Origin: Crossaster papposus | Lineage: Eukaryota; Echinodermata; Asteroidea; Velatida; Solasteridae | Direction of reading: 5' to 3' | Length of the DNA: 64,000 nt | Assembly (NCBI GenBank): GCA_037893245.1 | Contig: JBAIAA010000260.1 | Coordinates: 310,001 to 374,000, forward strand | Shown here: positions 2,189 to 59,538 of the stretch, piece after piece | How positions within the stretch are numbered: position 1 is the first letter of the stretch | Layout: each line of letters opens with the position of its first letter | Program-made: the position numbers and the translations under genes | Notes under the pieces: model-generated | Database searches by the model: none | What the model was told of the DNA's origin: nothing | Seen by the model: only the letters and a program-made list of their open reading frames with translations

Positions 2189-2847
2189 CAATAAACCTTT
2201 ACGACATTCTCAAAGCATCATGGGAAATAATTGAAATGCCCGGATGTGGATGACAAACAAAACTTTGTCGTGTGCGTAATCGAACGGCGGATCACGTAAG
2301 TTGGCAAGTTTTTCACGTTTTTCTTTAATATTTTAAAGAGTTTAGTCGTGATGTTTTCAGAGTTTTTCACTCTTAATACAAGAAGTATAATGAGTGGCTG
2401 ATTTAGTATAAATATAGGTGAATCCAGAGAAATCATTGGGGATCCACTCGGCCAGTGCTGCCAACGAATAGTTGTCGTGTGTGTACAAAATATACATATT
2501 CGTACCATGACCGGTCGGTCCTATATACGCTGTTTGTATCCAAAGTAGTCCTTGCTCTGTTTTCTTATGCAAAACAACGGTGACATTTTCAAGTTTTTCT
2601 TTAATTGGGGGCCTACTGTACTAGTACTACACTTGGCCGTTATTTTTTTAGATACAGGTTTAAGAAAGAATGGGGATTTTGTAATAATATTATTTTTTTA
2701 AATGGAAGACTAGCTGTGCCTGTAGTACTGTACTTGTACTACTGCAACTAACGGCCATGGAGAAATTCTCCATGAACTAACTAAAACTAGGCCTAATGAT
2801 TTTTACAGTAAGCTATACTGTATACACCCCACAGGTCTACAGGATTG
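2189..2847 (+). repeat. Left terminal inverted repeat of the two-gene transposon
   Basis: Matches the reverse complement of 9150-9761 almost throughout. It differs by a few substitutions and about four short indels. The largest is an extra segment of about 29 bp near 2750-2780 that contains a perfect hairpin (CATGGAGAA / TTCTCCATG with one unpaired base). Confidence 0.9.
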
Positions 2848-2974
2848 CCTGACTAGTGTCTGCATGATATGTGATCCTTTAATTTCCTAATCCTCAAAAC
2901 CCAATGTTTTCTGATTTCTTACTTATTATTTTATTTGTTTGTTTTATTTTGCAGCTGTTTCATCTTCCATAATA

Positions 2975-4471
2975 ATGCCTTACAGATGTTGTGTTGGCGG
3001 TTGCAACAACGACTCTCGCTATCCAGGCAAGAAAGTTAGACGAGGCCATGTGGAGACTCTCAAATTTCACAGAATTCCCAAAAATGAACAAAAAAGAAAA
3101 TTATGGGAGAACAAAATCAGCAAAGGCCGGAAGTTTTTCAAAGCTTCAGATTTTATGAGGGTATGCTCTAACCATTTCAGAGATGGGAAACCAACAGTTG
3201 AGGAACCTAATCCATCACTTTATTTAGTTTCAAGTGAGAGCAGTGTGAAAAGCCCACGTAAACGGAAACGAAACCTGCAACAGAAGCAAAAACAAATGCA
3301 CCACACATCAAGCCAGCCTAAACCGCTCGATGCTGAGCCACCTAATCTCAAAGCTCAGCCACCTAATCTCAAAGCTCAGCCACCTAATCTCAAAGCTCTT
3401 GGTGTCGAACCAGTGGAACCGCCTATTGATCATGAACCACTAGCTCTTGGTGTCAAACCAGTAGAACCACCTATTGATCCTGAACCGGCCCGTGCCCATG
3501 TGCCACACTTAAGCTTTAGATTAAGTGCAACCTTTGAACAAATTACAAGAGACAGTGATGTCAGGTTGTTTACAGGGCTTAAAAACTCAAATGTTTTTCA
3601 TGAACTTTTTAAGTTTTTGCAAGATAAAGCAGTGCATATGCAGTACTGGTATGGAGACAGCCGATATGATGACACTTATGAACCCGAGTTTTCAAAGCAT
3701 GAGCATTTAGGGAAACCTGGGCCCAAAAGGAAGTTAACACTTGAGCAAGAGATGCTTATGACTTTGATGCGCCTCCGTCTTGGATTACTCACCGAGCATT
3801 TAGCATTTCAATTTGATGTGTCAGCCAGTCAAGTGACTTCTGTGTTCAATTCCTGGATAACTCTGATGGCAAAGGAACTTGCATGGCTCATACACTGGCC
3901 AGACAGAAGAACAGTTCAGAGGAATTTGCCAGATGCTTTTCGTACATTTGCTCCAAAATGCAGATGCATCATAGATTGCTCTGAAATTTTCATCGAGACG
4001 CCTCATTCCCTCAGGTCCCAGGCCCAGTGCTGGAGTAATTATAAGCATCACTGCACTGCAAAGTTTCTTATTGCTATAACACCAAATGGTTCCATCAGCT
4101 TTTTGTCCCAGTGCTTTGGTGGTCGTGCTACTGATCTTTATCTGACACAAAATTCAGGATTCTTAAACATGCTTCAGCCAGGGGATTCTGTTATGGCAGA
4201 TCGTGGTTTCAAAATTGAAGAACTTTTGGGCTTTTACCAATGTTCTTTGTTTATTCCTCCTTCGAGTCATTCTAATCTACAAATGACAAGGGTAGCTGTT
4301 AACAAGACATCTAGAATAGCAAATTTACGCATATTTGTTGAGAAAGCAATAGCACGGATTAAGAAATTTAGACTTATTAAGTTTGAAGTTCCTATCACAC
4401 TTATGCAGAGCATTGACGACATTTTGACAGTTGTAGCCATCCTCACAAATTTGGATGATCCATTTTTATAG
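2975..4471 (+). CDS. THAP-domain DDE transposase
   Basis: The 498-residue product is the probable transposase of the surrounding element. I chose the ATG at 2975 (MPYRCC) because the upstream extension lacks an ATG and the THAP domain starts exactly here. Seen: a THAP zinc finger at residues 1-70 (C5/C6, C10, C64, H67, with LKFHRIP and a Trp between them). Next comes a basic, low-complexity linker with three PPNLKA repeats (about 122-142) and two copies of ALGVxPVEPPID. A helix-turn-helix-like segment (LTLEQEMLMTLMRLRLGL) lies at about 254-300. The C-terminal DDE_Tnp_4-type nuclease carries D334 (IIDCSE), D409 (MADRGF) and E456 (FVEKAI). The THAP finger should recognise the element's ends and the DDE core should cut and join DNA in the nucleus. 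There is no internal stop or frameshift. A pyrimidine-rich stretch ending in CAG at 2938-2954 could be a splice acceptor, so a short upstream exon is possible. Confidence 0.9.
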   Translation: MPYRCCVGGCNNDSRYPGKKVRRGHVETLKFHRIPKNEQKRKLWENKISKGRKFFKASDFMRVCSNHFRDGKPTVEEPNPSLYLVSSESSVKSPRKRKRNLQQKQKQMHHTSSQPKPLDAEPPNLKAQPPNLKAQPPNLKALGVEPVEPPIDHEPLALGVKPVEPPIDPEPARAHVPHLSFRLSATFEQITRDSDVRLFTGLKNSNVFHELFKFLQDKAVHMQYWYGDSRYDDTYEPEFSKHEHLGKPGPKRKLTLEQEMLMTLMRLRLGLLTEHLAFQFDVSASQVTSVFNSWITLMAKELAWLIHWPDRRTVQRNLPDAFRTFAPKCRCIIDCSEIFIETPHSLRSQAQCWSNYKHHCTAKFLIAITPNGSISFLSQCFGGRATDLYLTQNSGFLNMLQPGDSVMADRGFKIEELLGFYQCSLFIPPSSHSNLQMTRVAVNKTSRIANLRIFVEKAIARIKKFRLIKFEVPITLMQSIDDILTVVAILTNLDDPFL

Positions 4472-5454
4472 TAGATATAAAAGGTTTCAAAATATTGTTT
4501 TTCCATTGTGCTACCAGGATGTTAACAACCACAATGGATTCCAAGAATACTCAGTATTTTTTATTTTACTACACACATGCATAACAAAGATAAGGCATTA
4601 CAGAGGTGTATGTTGTTTAAAGCAATCTTGTATTTATTCTTTCTTCATGGAAACGATTGTCAACGACTCACAAAAAGATAGGCCAACAATGAATGTGTGG
4701 CTCATGAAGATGGTCCTTTTTTTGGCCATCCTAAAATATAAATTAATAAATATATTATTATATAAATTTATATATATATATATTTAATACATTAATCAAC
4801 TGTCTTTGTATAAATAAATTAAAATATGACAAGTATGTACATGTGCACACAAAACACCACAATTTTGTTATATAAATTCTTCCAGACTGCAACAATTGCA
4901 TACAAAATGAGAAGGGGGTACATTGTTACAAGATGGCACTGTTTGTTTTTTAAACATATGCGAATTGGCTTAATGGCACTTTGAGAGCCTTAAATGTTGA
5001 AGTGGAAACCACTTTTCATATTTTTTTGCAGCAGGGACCTAGATTAATCTCCCATAGCTTATTACAAATTCTACGACTTTCGTTTATGTGTGCGAGGTAT
5101 TGCTGAACAGCCAGGCTAAACTATCTGTACTGTTGTGATAGAATGATTACATCTTCCGTAAACAATCTTACCCTTTATTTGACTTGACAGAACTGGTTAC
5201 CCTATTCTAAGGCCTAAAAAGAAAATAGCATTAAGTTGTTGCAATGATGTTGTTCAAAACTGTTGTTCATCAAATTTTCCGTAAACAATTTTGTAACGTT
5301 CAAAACAATCTTAATTTTAAAGTATCAGAAAACAAAAGAATTGCAGACCCTATTTATTTCAAATTAAAAGAAGGTCACGGTAGCTTTCCTTCACAGCATA
5401 AATTAATGCAGTATCTGATTGCATTATCGCAGTATCAGCAAAACAGTGTTTTAA
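4472..5454. other. Intergenic AT-rich part of the transposon
   Basis: This separates the two convergent genes. Several AATAAA-like sites after 4740 could serve as poly(A) signals for the transposase gene. No other gene is evident. Confidence 0.4.
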
Positions 5455-5744
5455 AGGTAGTATACACCATTTGCAGATATCGAAAATATTTACTACCGAA
5501 TTAGTAAGAAATATCATACTCGTCTGAAAGTAAATGTTGATTCTGGGCATCCAGCAAAATGATTGCGCTAGATATCCTGTAATTATTCCGAAAAATTGAA
5601 TTTTATAATGAAAAATTTGCGATCAAAATAAGAATAACTGCTCGACGCCGGTTGAAAAAACCCGCTGTTTTTCGTGCTTTTCTCGGCATCCATGATTCTA
5701 AAACTTTGGACAGCTCAGTTAAACGATATTTACTATAAATCCAC

Positions 5745-5775
<31 letters not shown>

Positions 5776-5825
5776 ATCTACTCATTCATTATAATTCAAG
5801 CAATGACCAATGGTGTATACTACCT
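5455..5825 (+). mobile_element. MITE family A copy, complete, nested in the two-gene transposon
   Basis: A 371 bp non-autonomous element flanked by TTAA on both sides (5451-5454 and 5826-5829). TIRs begin AGGTAGTATACACCA, and the interior matches the other A copies in this window. A run of about 23 C followed by A lies near its right end (about 5742-5777). TTAA targets are typical of Kolobok and piggyBac elements. Its position shows that it arrived after the host transposon. Confidence 0.85.
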
Positions 5826-6208
5826 TTAAGTGTGTTGACACATTTAAATTTTTACCCTGTTGGTTGACATATATGGTATATAATGTTAAAAAAAAAGAAT
5901 ATGCTAACAATATTGAGAAGTTCAAGTTGCCCCTTTGATCGAAAATGTATTAATATAATTGCATAAATAAAGTAAAATATGATGTTATTTATTTATCAGA
6001 TATAATTTCTTCCAGACTAGAAATTTTACAGCAATAATTGCATATGATAGGAGATCACATAATAATTATAACAAAGTTCAAGTTACCACTTTCTCTAAAA
6101 AAAAGTGGAGCTCATAACCCTTGCCCCCCCCCCCCCAATCCATGAAAATGTCTAGTTATGCCACACTGTGTACATCACTTTAACTGTTTCACTTAGTTAA
6201 AATTAAAA
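5826..6208. other. Intergenic stretch before the YqaJ gene 3' end
   Basis: AT-rich, with a C14 run at about 6123-6136. No gene seen. It should contain the 3' UTR of the minus-strand gene. Confidence 0.35.
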
Positions 6209-7951
6209 CTAGCTTTCCTTAAGACGTGGCTTGTCGCAGCTTGGATTGGTGTAGATTTGTGAAATACCAAGTAATAGAGGTGCAAAGTGCAGTCTATAGA
6301 ATAGTACCAAATTTCTCAGCACACGTTCCCAGTACTCCCTATTGAAGTGAACAGTGTCAACAAAAAGAGGCCCAACCTCACTCCACACAACAAAGTAAGC
6401 TTTTTTACAACCAAGAAGTGCCATCTGACCGATAACCTGTGTGTAATACTTGTGTTTTTGGTTGACCTGTAATTTACCCTCATTATTGACAAGGAAGTCA
6501 AGGAATTTGTGGCCCTCCTGTACTGACACCTTCCTTGTTTTCAACAGATAGGGGCATTTGTACTCTATTGCCACTTTACCACAGCACTCACAAGTGAGAA
6601 CATTATCTGGAGATGCACCCAGATATGGGTGCCCTTTTGAGACAACTACACCACTCATACAAAGTTTTCCATTAATATGTTTTGACACTTCTAAACTTGC
6701 AAATGCTTGTCTTGCATCAGATTCATGCTTTTTGCCATATTTAACAGCATCAATGTGGTCAAGGCTTGGCGGATTAAGCAGATTAGCTAGAAGAGGTGTG
6801 GTCTTGGGCCTGATTTGTCCTTTAGATGCATTCAGAGAATTAACTTTGGTATAAACGTCATGAAATCTTGATGAAGTGATTCTCCCTCGTCTTTGAGATT
6901 TCCACTGAAATGATTGTGACTGACTTCTGGTTGCCTTTTCAATTTCACCCAGTTGGTTGTCATTGAAAGAGACCGCATCAAGAAAACCGGAAAGCAATTC
7001 TTCATTGGTTGCATTAGGATTTGCTTCTTTGACATTTGATGCGATAATCTCAAGTGGAGGAGGTAAATCATCTTCTGGAAGTGGCCTGAAAGTTTGATGG
7101 ACACCAGCCCCAGGACAAACTTTTTTCAGCTGTTTTAACAGATTCTGTTTAGCTTCATCAGTGACAGTTCTTTTACTGACAGGTCTTGGATCATACAGAC
7201 CCCTCTTTAGTGATTTGCTTGGATTGGGATTCATTTTCGAATGTTTTTCAAAGCTAATTTCCTTTATTGTCATTGGAGCAATTTCTTTGTCTGATGGTTT
7301 GTTCCATTGACAAGGAAGACTTGTGCAAGAACTTTGTGTCATGCCATGAGACACAGCATGCTCAACTTTATACAGTACTGCTATTACATGGTTGCAACAC
7401 CTACACAAGCCTGCTGTGCAGCTGCAGTACGCACACACTATTTCACCTGATTTATTGATAAGCACCCACACCTTTCTATGAGGATCATTGACTCTTTGGG
7501 AAGGAAGCACTTTAGCTTTTATTAAGATTCTTTGCTTTTGTGTGTCATCAGAGTTAGCATCATGACATTCTACCTTTCCCACAAACCCACTTTTAAAATA
7601 AGAATAAGCCTTTTGTGCCTTGTACTGTCCAATGTACTTTGTGTCAAATGCTTTGTTATCCAAAATGTATTGGAAAATGTTCCCAGTGTTAACTGCAGGC
7701 CATTTCATGATGTCATCTTCCCAAGAGTCAATTTCATTGGGATCTTGTATTTTATATGTATTAAGCATTTCTTTGTAATCAGCTTGCAGCTGTTTTGCCA
7801 ATGTATTATTAGAAACACTGATTGGTATATTCTGTTCACAAGCAACCAGAGCTCGGGCTGACAGAGCCAACTTATTCCCTGATATAGGTTGCCCACGTTG
7901 TTGTAGGTAAAATTTTAGCTCACCAAGAGTCCAATGTAAAAACTCTTCCAT
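6209..7951 (-). CDS. SAP-like / SWIM zinc finger / YqaJ-type nuclease protein
   Basis: The 580-residue product is the second protein of the transposon. Seen in order: a SAP-like segment at about 8-36 (TLGELKFYLQQRGQPISGNK), a motif family that binds AT-rich DNA; a SWIM zinc finger CxC...CxH at 176-188 (C176, C178, C186, H188); a basic linker; and a YqaJ/lambda-exonuclease-like core at about 350-545. The core has RGRITSSRF, KKHESDARQAF (E410), GASPDN with D449, AIEYKC with E463 and K465, and HKYYTQVIGQMALLG. D449, E463 and K465 match the D-(D/E)xK metal-binding pattern of this nuclease fold. Known members digest or resect DNA ends in recombination; a role in processing transposon ends or repairing donor sites is my inference. 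The frame is open throughout, converges with the transposase gene and lies wholly inside the element. Confidence 0.88.
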   Translation of the reverse strand: MEEFLHWTLGELKFYLQQRGQPISGNKLALSARALVACEQNIPISVSNNTLAKQLQADYKEMLNTYKIQDPNEIDSWEDDIMKWPAVNTGNIFQYILDNKAFDTKYIGQYKAQKAYSYFKSGFVGKVECHDANSDDTQKQRILIKAKVLPSQRVNDPHRKVWVLINKSGEIVCAYCSCTAGLCRCCNHVIAVLYKVEHAVSHGMTQSSCTSLPCQWNKPSDKEIAPMTIKEISFEKHSKMNPNPSKSLKRGLYDPRPVSKRTVTDEAKQNLLKQLKKVCPGAGVHQTFRPLPEDDLPPPLEIIASNVKEANPNATNEELLSGFLDAVSFNDNQLGEIEKATRSQSQSFQWKSQRRGRITSSRFHDVYTKVNSLNASKGQIRPKTTPLLANLLNPPSLDHIDAVKYGKKHESDARQAFASLEVSKHINGKLCMSGVVVSKGHPYLGASPDNVLTCECCGKVAIEYKCPYLLKTRKVSVQEGHKFLDFLVNNEGKLQVNQKHKYYTQVIGQMALLGCKKAYFVVWSEVGPLFVDTVHFNREYWERVLRNLVLFYRLHFAPLLLGISQIYTNPSCDKPRLKES

Positions 7952-8616
7952 TTTTACCTGGATTTGCCTAATCAGTGTTTCTAATAATACATGGATTTAC
8001 CCGGACATCAGGTGGGGGTGAAGGAACAAGGAGCTTCTTGTTTCGAAAGTACATGTAGTAAGCCCAAGCTTTTGAAGTCTCTGTTCATAGGGCAAGTGTA
8101 ACTGTTGAAGAACATTACAAAAACAAATCCAACCTAAATTATTTAGTAACACATAACGTTTACAAAATCATTATAATCACTTTTCTAATTCTTGATCCCC
8201 ATCTTTTTCATTTAAACATGCATTCCATTTCTGTTTTTATCCATGTAAATTCTGACAACGGCTGATGTTTTTGGTGAGAAAAAAAAAGAGAAAAAAAAAC
8301 AACACTTTTAATTTCATTTTACAAAAAACATTAACCCTAACGCTCCTCAATTCTCCAAAATCCTCATTGCAGTTTTTGAGGATTTTCGAGGATTGAAAAC
8401 AGAAAGAGAAAACAAAGGTTTTGTTTTGCACCTAGCAAATAAACAGCTTTCTCCCACAGGGGTAGTTCTTACCTGTTGGCAAATGAAGAGAAACCTCGGC
8501 GTGCAGAGACAACTACATGTATTGTTTTTAAGCTCCTTACTCACTTGAAGCTCCTTTAGGAGGTTTGTGACCGTTGGAATTAACTTCTCCCTAAAAAATC
8601 AAACAACATTATCTTC
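7952..8616. other. Upstream region of the YqaJ gene
   Basis: No further gene seen. It should contain the promoter of the minus-strand gene. A short patch at about 8335-8400 (GAGGATTTTCGAGGATTG) resembles the degenerate GGATT repeats at 29.8-30.3 kb. Confidence 0.35.
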
Positions 8617-8790
8617 ATTTCAGTTTTAGATGTGGGAGGAAAACCCCAAACTGTGGGGAAAACCCATGGAATCAGGTACATGTAGGGACTGAAAAGTCAA
8701 GCAAGGTTCCAGTTTGAGGTGGGATTTGAACCAGGGTCCACAGCGGTTAAAGGCAGGAAAAGAAAACCAGTGCACTAATGATGTTAATAA
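8617..8790 (-). repeat. tRNA-derived SINE fragment inside the transposon
   Basis: Read on the minus strand, it has a B-box-like GGTTCAAATCCCA preceded by an A-box-like TTAGTGCACTGGTTT, then a tail with TTTTCCTCCCACATCTAAAAC. That arrangement is typical of tRNA-headed SINEs. It is not a functional tRNA. Confidence 0.5.
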
Positions 8791-9149
8791 AGACAAACAG
8801 TTTACCTCAAACTCTCCAGAGCTCTAAAAAACTGCAGGTAGCTAATGTCAAAGGTGTTCTTCAAATGAAGTAATGAACAACCTGGAAAGTAAAAAAAACA
8901 ACAACAACATCCAGTCACTATTTTTTCCTTGCACTTATTCATCTTCAAGATCAAAATAATAATAACTAATTTTTTCTATAGCGCTTTCACTACGCCTACG
9001 GGCATCTCAAAAGGCTTATTTTTTTCAAGACAGGTTTTTGAAGTTTATAAATGATGAGACGTACCGTAGCACCAATTATAACTTAAGGGTTTATAAGGTG
9101 CTGCGGCGCATTCAGCAGCCACTGCCAGAAACATCGGGACAAACCCCTT

Positions 9150-9761
9150 CAATCATGTAGACCTGTGGGGTGTATAGCTTACTGTAAAAATCATTAGGCC
9201 TAGTTTTAGTTAGTTGCAGTAGTACAGGTACAGTACTACAGCTAGTCTTCCATTTAAAAAAATAATATTATTACAAAATCCCCATTCTTTCTTAAACCTG
9301 TATCTAAAAAAATAACGGCCAAGTGTAGTACTAGTACAGTAGGCCCCCAATTAAAGAAAAACTTGAAAATGTCACCGTTGTTTTGCATAAGAAAACAGAG
9401 CAAGGACTACTTTGGATACAAACAGCGTATATAGGACCGACCGGTCATGGTACGAATATGTATGTACACACACGACAACTATTCGTTGGCAGCACTGGCC
9501 GAGTGGATCCCCAATGATTTCCCTGGATTCACCTATATTTATACCAAATCAGCCACTCATTATACTTCTTGTATTAAGAGTGAAAAACTCTGAAAACATC
9601 ACGACTAAACTCTTTAAAATATTAAAGAAAAACGTGAAAAACTTGCCAACTTACGTGATCCGCCGTTCGATTACGCACACGACAAAGTTTTGTTTGTCAT
9701 CCACATCCGGGCATTTCAATTATTTCCCATGATGCTTTGAGAATGTCGTAAAGGTTTATTG
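9150..9761 (-). repeat. Right terminal inverted repeat of the two-gene transposon
   Basis: Inverted partner of 2189-2847, about 612 bp. It lacks the palindromic segment of about 29 bp present in the left copy. The match stops just beyond GGTTTATTG at 9753-9761. Confidence 0.9.
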
Positions 9762-10498
9762 CTTGCTTTGAGTAAACAAGACTTTACTTTTAAAACGGGG
9801 CAATCAAAACTGTGTAAAAGGGTTCAAAGCATTCCTTGCCCTTTGCTGTATAGGGCTGTTCCGAATATGTATACAGAATAGCCAAATATTTGATCATATA
9901 GTGTACCAACCAAATATTAGAGAAAAAAAAACCACATGCACACGTTCGAGACTGTGATGAAATTATAATCCAAAAGTTTCATAAGTCGGATTTATGAGGC
10001 GTCGGATTTATGAGCCATTGGACTTTATTCGGCCTCATGTAGCTCTGACGTCACACAAGACGTCGGACAAATGAGGCGTTAGAACTATGGGATGTAGTAC
10101 TTATGGAAGGGGGGGGGGGGTTTGTAATACCCCGATGTGTACTCTAACACTTGATGGCAGTAACATTTTGACATTTTATGCGATGTTTGTACTCTACATA
10201 CTACTATTGTTGTAGTCATTGTTCTAACAATAGGCCACGTCACAGAACACACGCGTATTGAGAACAGGTGCACTCCCCGTGTACGCCGTTTTGTATACTT
10301 GCAAACTCCATGCGGGGATCAAACAGTTTTGAAAAGACATGTTATGCCTAGGTTATATTTAGATGTCTATGGTTTGTATGCATAAATAATGGCAGTTAGA
10401 CAAACAAGGCGTCGGAGGCGTCGGACTTATGAGGCATCGGGTCTATGAGGCGTCGGACTTTTGAACCGAAATAAAAGTAAAAGTTAGTTGTAGAACCT
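9762..10498. other. Spacer with ancestral degenerate units of the G-rich minisatellite
   Basis: Units of the form GTCGGACTTATGAGGC occur loosely at 9985-10080 and 10405-10465. They look like precursors of the array that starts at 10500. TTTATT at about 10024-10029 reads AATAAA on the minus strand and is a possible poly(A) signal for the JmjC gene. A G12 run lies near 10110. Confidence 0.5.
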
Positions 10499-10499
10499 A

Positions 10500-11063
10500 T
10501 GGGGCTAGGGGGCGTCGGACCTATGGGGCTATGGGGCTATGGGGCTATGGGGCTATGGGGCTATGGGGCTATGGGGCTATGGGGCTATGGGGCTATGGGG
10601 CTATGGGGCTATGGGGCTATGGGGCTATGGGGCTATGGGGCTATGGGGCGTCGGGCCTATGGGGCGTCGGGCCTATGGGGCGTCGGGGCTATGGGGCGTC
10701 GGGGCTATGGGGCGTCGGGCCTATGGGGCGTCGGGCCTATGGGGCGTCGGGCCTATGGGGCGTCGGGCCTATGGGGCGTCGGGCCTATGGGGCGTCGGGC
10801 CTATGGGGCGTCGGGCCTATGGGGCGTCGGGCCTATGGGGCGTCGGGCCTATGGGGCGTCGGGCCTATGGGGCGTCGGGCCTATGGGGCGTCGGGCCTAT
10901 GGGGCGTCGGGCCTATGGGGCGTCGGGCCTATGGGGCGTCGGGCCTATGGGGCGTCGGGCCTATGGGGCGTCGGGCCTATGGGGCGTCGGACCTATGGGG
11001 CGTCGGACCTATGGAGCGTCGGACCTATGGAGTGTCGGACCTATGGGGCGTCGGACCTACTTC
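10500..11063 (+). repeat. G-rich minisatellite, 8-bp then 16-bp units
   Basis: About 15 perfect copies of GGGGCTAT (about 10525-10645) are followed by about 26 copies of the 16-mer GGGCCTATGGGGCGTC with few changes, the last ones with GGACCTATGG. G4 runs spaced by four bases over more than 100 bp strongly favour G-quadruplexes. Three overlapping plus-strand frames of about 200 codons are open only because of the repeat. On the minus strand it lies immediately after the JmjC stop codon, so it probably forms part of that 3' UTR. Confidence 0.95.
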
Positions 11064-11071
11064 CTCCACAA

Positions 11072-11350
11072 CTACTTCCTCCACAATAGGCCTCGGATCT
11101 TAAGTGGCGGTGGATTCTTGCTGGTTCTTTCCTCATCTGTAGGCAGCTTGTCTACCCCGAGATAGTCCATGACGAGATAAACTAAGCTCTCGACTTGCTC
11201 ACGAGAGGCCCTCTCCTTCCACTCCTTGAAGAGGAACGTCGCCAGGGAGTTAGGCAGGTGGGCCAAGACTCGCTGAAGGGCATCGTGGTTGCGGTTTTGC
11301 TCGATTATGTTCAGCAGCCAATGGGAAAATGCAGGCCACTTGTTGAGTTC
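11072..11350 (-). CDS. JmjC gene exon 7 (C terminus and stop)
   Basis: 279 nt including TAG, acceptor TTTCAG. Encodes a helical tail from ELNKWPAFSHW to RGLLWRK. The last 15 bases including the stop (TTGTGGAGGAAGTAG) are repeated in tandem just downstream, at the edge of the minisatellite. Confidence 0.85.
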   Translation of the reverse strand, partial: ELNKWPAFSHWLLNIIEQNRNHDALQRVLAHLPNSLATFLFKEWKERASREQVESLVYLVMDYLGVDKLPTDEERTSKNPPPLKIRGLLWRK

Positions 11351-14300: not shown

Positions 14301-17300
14301 CTTCACATTTCGACAAAAAAATGATAATCAAAATTATCATTATTTTTGTTGAAGGTGATTAAAATATTTGTCTCTCCTATGATATCTTTCATTGATTATT
14401 TATCAGTTAACATGTCAAGTTTTATGGGAATGATCAATTCAAACAGTGTTTTGAGGCCCGCCGTATACCCGCCGTATACCAACGTGATTTACACATGACA
14501 GCACAGCACAACGTTCAATCATGGCGGCACAACGTTCAATCATGGCGGCACAACGTTCAATCATGGCGGCACAACGTTCAATCATGGCGGCACAACGTTC
14601 AATCATGGCGGCACAACGTTCAATCATGGCGGCACAACGTTCAATCATGGCGGCACAACGTTCAATCATGGCGGCACAATGTTCAATCATGGCTGCACAA
14701 CGTTCAATCATGGCGGCACAACGTTCAATCATGGCGGCACAACGTTCAATCATGGCTGCACAACGTTCAATCATGGCGGCACAACGTTCAATCATGGCGG
14801 CACAACGTTCAATCATGGCGGCACAACGTTCAATCATGGCGGCACAACGTTCAATCATGGCGGCACAACGTTCAATCATGGCGGCACAACGTTCAATCAT
14901 GGCGGCACAACGTTCAATCATGGCGGCACAACGTTCAATCATGGCGGCACAACGTTCAATCATGGCGGCACAACGCTCAATCATGGCGGCACATCGTTCA
15001 ATCATGGCAGCACAACGTTCAATCATTTTCAACCGATTTCAAGAGTAAATAATAATACAATATATTCTTGTTTTTTTCCGGTATCTAATAAAATCGACAA
15101 ACACCTAACCATTGAATTACGAGACTAGCAAAATAAATTCAGGGTTTATTTAATAACATTTTTTTTGAAAGAAAAAAAAGAAACGGTACCTTAACACCTA
15201 ATATTTTGAGCTCCTAAACATTTTTCAAACAGATTTAAGGGGAAAATTTAATACGATTTATTTTCCGTTTTTCTTGTATTTGACCACAACGATCTATTTC
15301 GTGGCCCGTAAATTACAAGGCTACACATGTAGCTTTTAAAAAAAAATTTACCAAACCTATACGAGCCAAGAATAAATAAGCAAGAATAAAATCGAGGTGG
15401 TACCAAATCTCGATGGCGGACCCCAGGATACCAAAACTGAACCATGAATATTTGAAATACTTTAAATTAAGACCCCAAAACAAAGGCATGATTCTCAACG
15501 AAAATGGGTATGATTATTTGTTGTCCTGCATTGTCTGAGCTGAGGTTCTATCCCAGCAACTTACTTCCAGAAGCATGTACTTCAATCCTAAAGTGAATTT
15601 CTACACATCTTAAGAGGTTGTTATTCAAATTTAATAAATAATCTGCTGATTTATATTTAATAAAACCATGATATTTACTTTGTCCCTAAAAAGGATATGA
15701 TGGGTTTCTTTTTTATGGGATGGTTTATTTTTGATGTAATTCTTGGGAAATGGTGACTTGTTACGTTTTTGTTATAGTCCTAATGGCTCTAGCCTCTGGA
15801 CATACAGACTTGTCACAGAGTCACCATGGTATTTAGTGAATAAGTCATGACCAGTCTTTCCAAATGGTTCTAGAGTAAAAATGTATCTATTTTTTCCTCT
15901 GTGCCATGTTTAGTTATTGCACTTTAGTTTTTTATGTATAGTAGGGTATGACTGAAATAAAGACAAAGTAACTTTAAAGATATGTCAAAATTGTGCCTCT
16001 TTTCTTCCTATCGGTGTTCTTATTTTTGTTTACAGGTTTATGACCAATTAACCGTTACCCCATTTTACACGTAGTGTGAGTCAGTGTGCGCTGTTTTTAA
16101 ATCCAAACTTCCAATACCGGTATCCATAATATACTCCTCTGGTCAAAATTTATCATTCCAGCTAAAAATGGTAAATATTGGATTTAAAAAATAAATTGTA
16201 TAAAAATCAGGCTTCATATTGCCACAACATTAACCAAAAATAGGTAGAAATTGGCCTCAGATTGGCCTCAGATTGCACCAGAGAGCTACGCGCTCGTGAT
16301 GTGCGCTTCGCGCACATGCTCCGCACTTACATGTACTCAAATTGTTACACACCCAACTTTTTTTTTTACACACCCAATTCACAAAATCCTGCCTAAGACC
16401 TTGCTCAAAAGTCCAAAGGTGTATCCTACCTTTAAGCACACGAACTCTATGGAATGTCCCCATAATGTCATTTACTAAAAGAATGTGTATCTATGTGTGT
16501 ATCTCTGTATGTATCTATGTGTGTATCTCTGTATGTATCTCTGTATGTATCTCTGTATACATGTACGTGGAGGGAAATACTGTACGGTACCCTGTTGAGA
16601 CGTGAACACAATGGGGACATTGGGAATGAATGTCATCTCCACAGGACAATTTATACAAGTAGGTGTAAAGGTCAGGTCTCCATAAGGTTTTTCACAAAAT
16701 AGATATACGAGTTGACTCAGAATTACTCAAAAACTAGGGTTAGGGTTAGTGTGATTGTCAAGCATCGGCAAGCCAAAATTTGGGGAGAAACCTATGGCTA
16801 AGGATGGTAAAGGCATCCGTTCCCCTTTTTATGTGTTTATTATTTTATTATTTTATGGGTATAATTCTAATGATTAGATATATGCGATTCTTATAATGAG
16901 AGATTTAGATGTTAAACTCTGGTTCGAATTCTTCGATCACCAAGTGTCGGAAATACACGCCTTTCATGAACATGTGTGTGCTGCATATGGGTATTTCCAT
17001 AAATAAGGAACACAGTCTGTGACATGTGTATTTTGATCCTAAAATCAGTAAAACAACTTTATGTTGAACATTACTTTTTAAAAATTGCATATTGACTAAG
17101 TTCCATATAAATGGTGATAAAACAATTATTCTGAACTAAAATTACAGTGGATTAGCTCCAATAGGGTGGTTTACGCGGAAAAAATAGGGTTCCTCGCGTA
17201 AGTGGGACACCGAAATGAAAAATCTTACATTTGGGCATCCTAAAACATGTTTTTTGCTAATTTTATGTTCTTTTCATAACGATTGATCATGTTGCAAGTC

Positions 17301-57602: not shown

Positions 57603-58575
57603 AGGTAGGATACACCACTTGCATATCACAAAATTTTACTAATGAATTATTAGGAAATATCTTACTTGAAAGTAAATATTTATTGTAGGCATCTAGCTAT
57701 TAAGGATTGCGCTAGATATCCTGTATATGTTAAAAAAATTGAATTTTATACAAAAAATCATGATCGCGAACAACACAAATAACTGCCTGTTGAAAACAAA
57801 CGCTGTTTTTCTTGCTTTGTTCTCGGCATTTATGATTGTACCTGATTGACCTAAACTTTGGACAAGTCAGGTAAACGATTTTTATTATAAAATACATGTA
57901 CAACCCCCCAAAATCCACCCTTCCTGCATCCTGAGCCACGTACGCAGCGCTTTTACGCGCTTTCTACTAATAGCGCTCAAAGCCCTGCGGACATACGTCA
58001 ATACGTCAAGATCTGTGGTTATTAGCGCAAAAAATCATGCGCCCAATCAGAGCCTCCGTTACAAACAGACTAAGGCCATTTCCTAGACCCTGGTCTTCGG
58101 CTACAGCCTATTGCTAAACTGTATGAATGAAGCCTGAGACGAAGACAAAGCTGGGGTTCGAAAAACAGCCAAAGGCATGCGAACCAACGCGCATTTCTAT
58201 TGGTCCATTCGCTTGGACATCTGAGGTGTTCTCACAAATGTTCATCCTCCCACGAAAACAATTTAATTAATCAGAAAAATTGTAAAAATTAACGTACCGG
58301 TACATAACGTGAAATAAATCTTTGCTATTATATATTATACGGAATAAGAAACATAAAATACTGAAAAGCTATGTAAACGCCCCCAAAAATAAGTATAGTG
58401 GTAGAAATTATCTTTTTATCAGGGGTGGACGTTCATATCATGTATTGGCCAACTTGTTTAATGATTGTTGTGAATATTCGCAGGGGTTGGAGCACATTAT
58501 TAGTAGAAAGCGCGTAAAAGCGCTGCGTGGCTCAGGATGCCCTTCCTGATAATTCAAGCCATTACTAATGGTGTC
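57603..58575 (+). mobile_element. MITE family A copy interrupted by a Mutator-like element
   Basis: TTAA at 57599-57602, then AGGTAGGATACACCACTTGC. Broken at 57926 within AATCCACCCTTCCTG and resumed at 58540. Its right end merges into a tandem array. Confidence 0.75.
57927..58539. mobile_element. Mutator-like element with 9-bp target duplication
   Basis: 613 bp. Perfect duplication CCCTTCCTG at 57918-57926 and 58540-58548. Inverted ends of about 45 bp start CATCCTGAGCCACG and contain GCAGCGCTTTTACGCGC. A 75-codon plus-strand frame at 58322-58549 is unlikely to be real. Non-autonomous. Confidence 0.8.
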
Positions 58576-58795
58576 CTACCTTTACATCCACCCATTCATG
58601 ATAATTCAAGCCATTACTAATGGTGTATCCTACCTTTACATCCACCCATTCCTGATAAGTCAAGCAATTACCAATGGTGTATCCTACCTTTACATCCACC
58701 TATTCCTGATAATTTAAGCAATTACCAAGGGTGTACCTGTATCTCACCTTTACATCCACCCATTCCTGATAATTCAAGCAATTAAAAAAAAAAAA
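58540..58795 (+). repeat. Tandem array of a MITE-A end
   Basis: About five units of roughly 58 bp (GATAATTCAAGCAATTACCA, TGGTGTATCCTACC, TTTACATCCACCCATTCC), derived from the right end of family A plus flank. Confidence 0.85.
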
Positions 58796-59525: not shown

Positions 59526-59538
59526 GAATGTATTTTAA

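Follow-up and report, generated by a model that had tools for sequence, protein, structure and literature searches.

A probable ISL2EU-type DNA transposon with THAP-DDE transposase and YqaJ nuclease genes between long inverted ends in Crossaster papposus

Structure of the element

The window analysed here is a stretch of 64,000 bp from Crossaster papposus (assembly GCA_037893245.1, contig JBAIAA010000260.1, designated C260, positions 310,001 to 374,000 of the forward strand). A complete DNA transposon of 7,565 bp is located at window positions 2193-9757, most probably a member of the ISL2EU group, with two open and convergent genes coded between long inverted ends (Table 1). One gene encodes a transposase and the other a nuclease with a YqaJ (lambda-exonuclease-like) domain. 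The two-gene transposon with both genes open that was described in a first-pass annotation is borne out by open reading frames (ORFs) of 498 and 580 amino acids (aa) and by their Pfam domains. Of the extent given there, 2189..9761, the element itself stands, but the outermost bases, C-AAT on the left and ATT-G on the right, are target DNA. The two genes and the two ends are rightly designated as apparently intact, but the element has a short repeat nested between its genes.

The inverted repeats had been described as about 0.6 kb long and nearly identical, in agreement with the blocks found (299 nt at 99% and 226 nt at 100%, then 44 nt and 33 nt). When positions 2189-2847 and 9150-9761 were aligned in blastn, they were 92% identical, gaps counted. 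The element starts with AAACC and finishes with GGTTT. Each end carries an inward TATA-like box, and an acceptor-like TTTTGCAG lies shortly upstream of the transposase ATG, so each end may supply a promoter.

All three transposase domains scored above the curated Pfam cut-offs (DDE_Tnp_4 3.7e-42, HTH_Tnp_4 4.9e-17, THAP 7.9e-11), and catalytic residues D334, D409, and E456, as previously named, are present in the translation when the methionine at 2975 is counted as residue 1. Both folds that a profile search was expected to recover, DDE_Tnp_4 and YqaJ (1.1e-13), were thus found. In a phmmer search against solved structures, the transposase matched THAP domains, with a best E-value of 0.00047.

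Table 1. Features of the transposon and its target site in the window
Feature	Positions	Strand	Basis
Left AT target site duplication copy	2191..2192	.	preceding base A at 2190; AAT|AAACC in 4/4 copies
Left terminal inverted repeat, ~655 bp	2193..2847	+	repeat search, blastn, eight matching arms of four copies
TATA-like box TATAAAT in left end, inward; candidate transposase promoter	2407..2413	+	sequence pattern
Transposase gene, 498 aa	2975..4471	+	ORF, Pfam; open in 4/4 copies
Transposase THAP domain	~2987-3229	+	Pfam
Transposase HTH_Tnp_4 domain	~3728-3880	+	Pfam
Transposase DDE_Tnp_4 domain	~3971-4450	+	Pfam
Nested short repeat between the genes, similar to a miniature inverted-repeat transposable element	5446..5834	.	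present in 4/4 copies
Nuclease gene, 580 aa: SAP-like N-terminus, SWIM motif, YqaJ (lambda-exonuclease-like)	6209..7951	-	ORF, Pfam
YqaJ domain; catalytic D449, E463, K465	6407..6907	-	Pfam 1.1e-13
SWIM-type motif CSCTAGLCRCCNH, aa 176-188	7388..7426	-	motif
SAP-like stretch, ~aa 8-38, weak	7838..7930	-	motif in window family and at the L056 place
Right terminal inverted repeat, ~608 bp	9150..9757	-	repeat search and blastn; inward TATA-like box 9537-9543
Right AT target site duplication copy	9758..9759	.	next base T at 9760

Copies of the element and target site

With the outermost 300 bases of the left inverted repeat as query, 11 matching places were found in the 1.02-Gb genome. Eight of these are the ends of four complete elements, on contigs C260 (the window), C9, C429, and C648. 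The ninth, on C553 with 85% identity, opens a longer relic in which 801 bases of left-end sequence are preserved at 88%. The last two places are short tips, 33 and 36 bases long; one lies on C350 and one on C5. The tip on C350 is part of a roughly 0.7-kb derivative (L024) with inverted tips and AAT/ATT flanks. The full-length copies are 7,548-7,632 bp long, lie on four contigs within four different flanks, and differ pairwise by 14-44 substitutions in about 7.5 kb (0.19-0.59%). Four near-identical complete copies with open genes indicate that the family moved recently, and the three found outside the window remove the objection that no second copy might exist in the genome.

The nuclease is open at 580 aa in all four copies, and the transposase is 498, 498, 491, and 491 aa long, the difference being a 21-base tandem unit. 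Among the four copies, the transposase is less variable than the other non-end sequence (1/1476 versus 25/3037 sites, p 0.0006), the nuclease is not clearly below it (7/1743 sites, p 0.10), and the ends vary rather more (18/1237 sites, p 0.06). A 19-base palindrome CATGGAGAAATTCTCCATG is located at 2756-2774 inside a 29-base insert. This insert was found in the C553 relic and, in each of the four copies, in the left end but not in the right.

All four copies are flanked by AAT before AAACC and by ATT after GGTTT, with G as the next base in 4/4, and AAT/ATT flanks were also found at the nearest relative, L056. The C648 copy is inserted in a multi-copy long interspersed nuclear element (LINE). 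Its flanks, joined with one AT kept, were used as a query for the unoccupied site, and 40 LINE places were scored: 20 are ungapped over all 134 bases (93-99%), 18 span 137 bases, and two cover bases 1-116 alone. The six unoccupied paralogues inspected, all from the ungapped 20, read AATTG. The flanks of the copies and the unoccupied AATT together show an AT duplication at A|AT|T. Duplication of TA, which the flanks alone would allow, was rejected, as it needs AATATT at the empty site and the unoccupied paralogues of the C648 site read AATT. No empty allele or second copy of the window site was found in a search that matched just its two flanks. The mechanism beyond simple cut-and-paste suggested earlier finds no support at C648, where the element is cleanly inserted between the two copies of a duplicated 2-bp target.

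Relatives in the same genome

In the genome scan, the best 150 of 200 YqaJ candidates were scored. At least 81 matches to the window nuclease (75 of 413 candidates scored) and at least 92 matches to the window transposase (86 of 852 candidates scored) were found, the transposase list being a lower bound. The 92 transposase matches were taken as 86 places, with six short N-terminal matches left out, and on the transposase side of the pairing test, six window-nuclease matches were added to the 150 YqaJ matches. A YqaJ match was found within 3 kb of 54 of the 86 transposase places and within 10 kb of 59 of them, where chance would give about 0.3% each. All 59 paired loci are convergent as in the window.

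It is extremely unlikely that the nuclease is a host gene or viral remnant lying beside or inside the transposon by accident. YqaJ domains were named as endogenous viral elements in the available part of a genome paper (PMC7826175), and 91 of the 150 YqaJ places are without a listed transposase within 10 kb, with 86 of 852 transposase candidates scored. On the contrary, the nuclease lies between the ends in 4/4 copies and in the nearest relative, and the convergent order is constant in the paired loci; two scans of viral contigs with the window proteins revealed no relative, and a scan with the nuclease alignment revealed two distant YqaJ matches. The four copies, together with the counted layouts, rule out a host gene or virus for the window family. 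At least 59 of the 150 YqaJ matches adjoin a related transposase, which is of importance for the endogenous-viral naming of such domains in that part of the genome paper.

The nearest relative, L056 on contig C431, has the same two-gene layout and ends of about 0.79 kb at 97%, starting with AAG and with TATA-like patterns in both. Its transposase is 44% and its nuclease 34-42% identical to those of the window family. Among five relatives fetched at 8-9 kb (L056-L060), long ends were found in L056 only, though those of the others may be cut off. On contig C195, three YqaJ matches of equal score (394484, 442250, and 489308) follow one another at intervals of about 47-48 kb, and a transposase match is located about 1.3 kb from each of them; it looks as if a large segment with a related transposon had been duplicated in tandem.

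The nuclease and its domains

The YqaJ domain scored 52.1 bits against a Pfam cut-off of 22, and the residues D449, E463, and K465 reported earlier were confirmed in the translation. The nuclease matches exonuclease families of PHROGs at 6.1e-14 and 2.5e-8. In a phmmer search against solved structures, lambda exonuclease was a marginal match (E about 1), ranked under a synaptonemal protein at 0.44. A usable frame was present in 36 of 38 loci, and after removal of near-duplicates above 90%, 11 distinct nucleases were obtained, the other ten being 22-34% identical to the window nuclease. Active-site positions E410, D449, K465, Q505, and Q509 are kept in 11/11 and E463 in 10/11. An active site kept across such distant lineages argues for catalysis by the nuclease.

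SWIM and SAP parts had been named as additions that may be undescribed. The SWIM part is present by motif; the only Pfam matches, from the equivalent region of two relatives, have E-values of 0.0092 and 0.00075 and do not reach the curated cut-off. It is not peculiar to the family, as among 43 nuclease loci scanned, some of which overlap at one place, the whole motif was found in 23, its second half in 10, and neither in 10. The SAP part is weaker: Pfam gave E-values of 0.033 and 0.024 in two relatives, and the window nuclease is without a listed SAP match. The SAP-like motif, recognised by motif only, was found in 7/43 loci, four of the window family and three of the L056 place, and to this extent it is confined to the family and its nearest relative.

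C-terminal PHD fingers were found in the relatives L060 (2e-9), L045 (7.8e-8), and L051 (2.5e-5), and below the cut-off in L059 (7e-5) and L030 (0.00099). The PHD-bearing YqaJ nucleases include the nearest relative of the window family, where the match is below the cut-off. Downstream of the window nuclease, no PHD finger was seen by eye in three frames, and none was found by Pfam in the protein. At L037:349-2517 on contig C3, the YqaJ nuclease is fused to a Ulp1/C48-type protease (Pfam 4.2e-6, above the cut-off). Places on C251, C479, C854, C31, and C59 have YqaJ scores equal or similar to that of the L037 locus and possibly carry the same fusion; a listed transposase is within about 3 kb of the YqaJ match on C3, C479, C854, C31, and C59.

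The ratio of nonsynonymous to synonymous substitution rates (dN/dS) was computed only for nuclease pairs more than 50% identical with at least 15 differences. The values are mixed: 0.20-0.29 (L003 group), 0.24-0.28 (L045 group), 0.54 (L044 versus L030/L031), and 0.70-1.51 (eight pairs involving L048).

Classification

According to the available part of a published survey (PMC4482050), ISL2EU elements, a group of the PHIS superfamily, combine a THAP-HTH-DDE gene with a YqaJ gene and produce an AT duplication at A|AT|T. Their ends are 6-259 bp long and mostly start with GG, the mean length is 4,840 bp, and 25 families were recorded in 14 animal species. The available part of a second paper (PMC9179366) lists identical coding components, with HTH or THAP. 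The window element has a transposase with THAP, HTH, and DDE domains, all above the Pfam cut-offs, a YqaJ second gene inside the ends in 4/4 copies, and an AT duplication at A|AT|T (4/4 flanks, and 6/6 unoccupied paralogues at one site). Its host is an animal. The cytochrome oxidase gene COX1 of the 16,330-bp contig C1841 makes sense in genetic code 9, as AAA is placed at Asn in 6/7 and ATA at Ile/Val in 17/21 positions relative to a mammalian chain; its best solved relatives are mammalian. Code 9 is shared by echinoderms and flatworms, and by this gene the host is probably an echinoderm. Filed by the published description of the group, the window element is a full-length, recently mobile DNA transposon of the ISL2EU type, with a probability of about 0.88. 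It belongs to a known kind, and the pairing of THAP-DDE and YqaJ is already in print (PMC4482050), as the first-pass annotation had stated.

The element differs from the survey, as far as its available part goes, in ends of about 0.6-0.8 kb (window family and L056) versus 6-259 bp, in a start of AAA (AAG in L056) versus the usual GG, in a length of 7.6 kb versus a mean of 4.84 kb, and in the SWIM and SAP-like parts of its nuclease, which are unmentioned there. More generally, ends beyond 6-259 bp and the SWIM, SAP-like, PHD, and Ulp1 parts on such nucleases go beyond that part of the survey. Among titles and abstracts, in a coverage that leaves out most subscription journals, no SWIM, SAP, PHD, or Ulp1 was found with YqaJ or ISL2EU, and nothing on alkaline exonuclease with THAP.

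Several points weigh against this assignment or the evidence for it. The ends (about 608-655 bp, AAACC) fall outside the range and GG start in the available part of the survey; these are a described range and a tendency and not a defining rule, and membership is kept despite the long ends. A duplication of 2 bp does not by itself single out ISL2EU, since relatives of the PHIS group show 0-, 2-, and 3-bp duplications and PHISTA, a fungal lineage of the group, has 2-bp TA duplications, according to the available part of PMC12730594. The C9 copy lies in a tandem repeat whose neighbouring units fit a 2-bp duplication in length and read GAAT, not AATT, and this site was dropped as proof of the duplication. 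The C5 tip reads GGTTT|ATG, not ATT, and no partner tip was found for it. YqaJ matches are missing within 10 kb of 27 of the 86 transposase places, and L056 is broken, with a stop in the transposase frame and the nuclease in two pieces (intron or decay). As to the nuclease, one silent and six replacing differences among the four copies give no sign of recent constraint, and single-sequence structure prediction reached a mean predicted local distance difference test (pLDDT) score of 34.4 and was not used.

A Spy-like or Harbinger-like element, rather than ISL2EU, is very unlikely. The DDE fold and AT-rich targets are common to all three groups, and PIF/Harbinger elements also have a related DDE and HTH transposase, two genes, and inverted ends of up to 1,042 bp, but in the available part of PMC4482050 they are given a TWA duplication and a Myb/SANT second gene, and THAP and YqaJ are not listed for them. 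Spy has no duplication, inserts at AAATTT, and has one gene, whereas a 2-bp AT duplication and two genes, one of them YqaJ, were found here. Outside these groups, KolobokE is likewise a DDE transposon with a lambda-exonuclease-like PD-D/ExK nuclease, but belongs to another superfamily and has the nuclease encoded downstream of the transposase domain, according to the available part of PMC9587614. Lambda exonuclease and the YqaJ recombinases share the profile family and the D, E, K triad with the window nuclease, at the marginal phmmer value given above, but the window element has SWIM and SAP-like parts, and no third gene as an annealing partner was seen between its ends.

Evolution of the ends and possible role of the nuclease

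In an alignment of the eight ends, columns 302, 303, 311, 354, and 522 carry a state private to both C429 ends. The two ends within a copy differ by 1-4 substitutions in about 590, compared with 10-13 (left arm) and 5-7 (right arm) between C429 and the other copies. The two ends of one copy change together. When the C553 relic is taken as outgroup, C429 retains the ancestral states at 302-303 and near 354. It was therefore the common ancestor of the remaining three copies that acquired one and the same new state in its two ends, whereas column 522 changed in both C429 ends. We read this as at least two homogenising events between the ends of a copy, though the stretch around 302-354 holds indels and is harder to align. 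Several indels and substitutions are confined to one arm of one copy, and homogenisation is thus not continuous. The 42 columns with a fixed left-right difference all fall at 545-651, and the outer 0.54 kb is thus the part kept alike. The comparison made in the L056 family agrees with this: L056-left shares its state with L056-right alone at 10 sites, L056-right with L044-right alone at seven, and the third pairing was found at none; one arm of the L044 copy was used, and decay of that copy could contribute.

By analogy with established families, the THAP domain would bind the element ends, and the DDE domain would excise the element and insert it at AATT (A|AT|T). The long ends may supply inward promoters for both genes. 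Less surely, the SWIM and SAP-like parts would recruit an active YqaJ exonuclease to the DNA ends generated by excision, where resection would steer repair to homologous copying and restore the element at the donor site. The 0.6-kb inverted ends might serve as repair templates, by which the two ends would stay identical. Judged from sequence, an action of the nuclease on excision ends that steers repair to homologous copying is put forward tentatively. Improbable, as a wider proposal, is that ISL2EU elements are not plain cut-and-paste transposons, with a SWIM/SAP-targeted exonuclease turning each excision into copying repair, ends mutually rewritten, and a recombination module convergent with the KolobokE exonuclease.

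The concerted ends are compatible with lambda-exonuclease-like action, and host gene conversion explains them too. Host pathways are known to bring about conversion between long inverted repeats. Homogenisation of the ends by it, or by replication template switching between the inverted repeats, with the nuclease uninvolved, has about an even chance and weighs against the proposed role of the nuclease. The events are few, with one cluster of sites, in the stretch with indels, and one single site, and the presence of long ends in L056 only among the five relatives suggests that YqaJ elements without long ends may be common; no direct counter-point was found.

Rather unlikely is the possibility that the second protein acts mainly as a DNA-binding or recruitment partner of the transposase, similarly to the Myb-like protein of Harbinger, with nuclease activity minor or directed to another target. 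SWIM, SAP-like, and PHD modules serve for binding, and the six to one ratio of replacing to silent changes would fit such a role. In the available part of PMC4482050, the second proteins of the group are called DNA-binding, with function recorded as unknown, and in that of PMC9179366, end binding and assistance in transposase import are attributed to the Myb-like protein of Harbinger. A pure binder would nevertheless be expected to lose the active-site positions, five of which are kept in all 11 distinct nucleases and E463 in ten. The four near-identical open copies are a starting point for a two-component transposition assay of the YqaJ gene, whose function in ISL2EU is recorded as unknown in the available part of the survey (PMC4482050). 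If the nuclease couples excision to repair, it would provide DNA transposons with a novel means of increasing their copy number.

Other features of the window and the assembly

The nested repeat at 5446-5834 aligns through all four copies of the transposon, the C648 copy having an additional 79 bp at 5825. It has 70-84% matches at eight other window places, with 266-403 aligned columns, and in shorter pieces. The long matches start or end at 59530, 32314, 28304, 50329, 57598, 27128, 51482, and 37866. The repeat is abundant, with nine long places in 64 kb, one of them inside the transposon, and a piece of it was also found in tandem at 58543-58784. Window positions 10497-11165 and 14439-15052 are tandem arrays of 16/24 and 21 bases, respectively, with several frames open, and their ORFs are repetitive phantoms.

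Contig C8 (5.30 Mb, L068) looks bacterial and is a contaminant or symbiont. Its oxidase subunit I reads without stops and is 80% identical to that of Cupriavidus laharis, the best among the matches listed.

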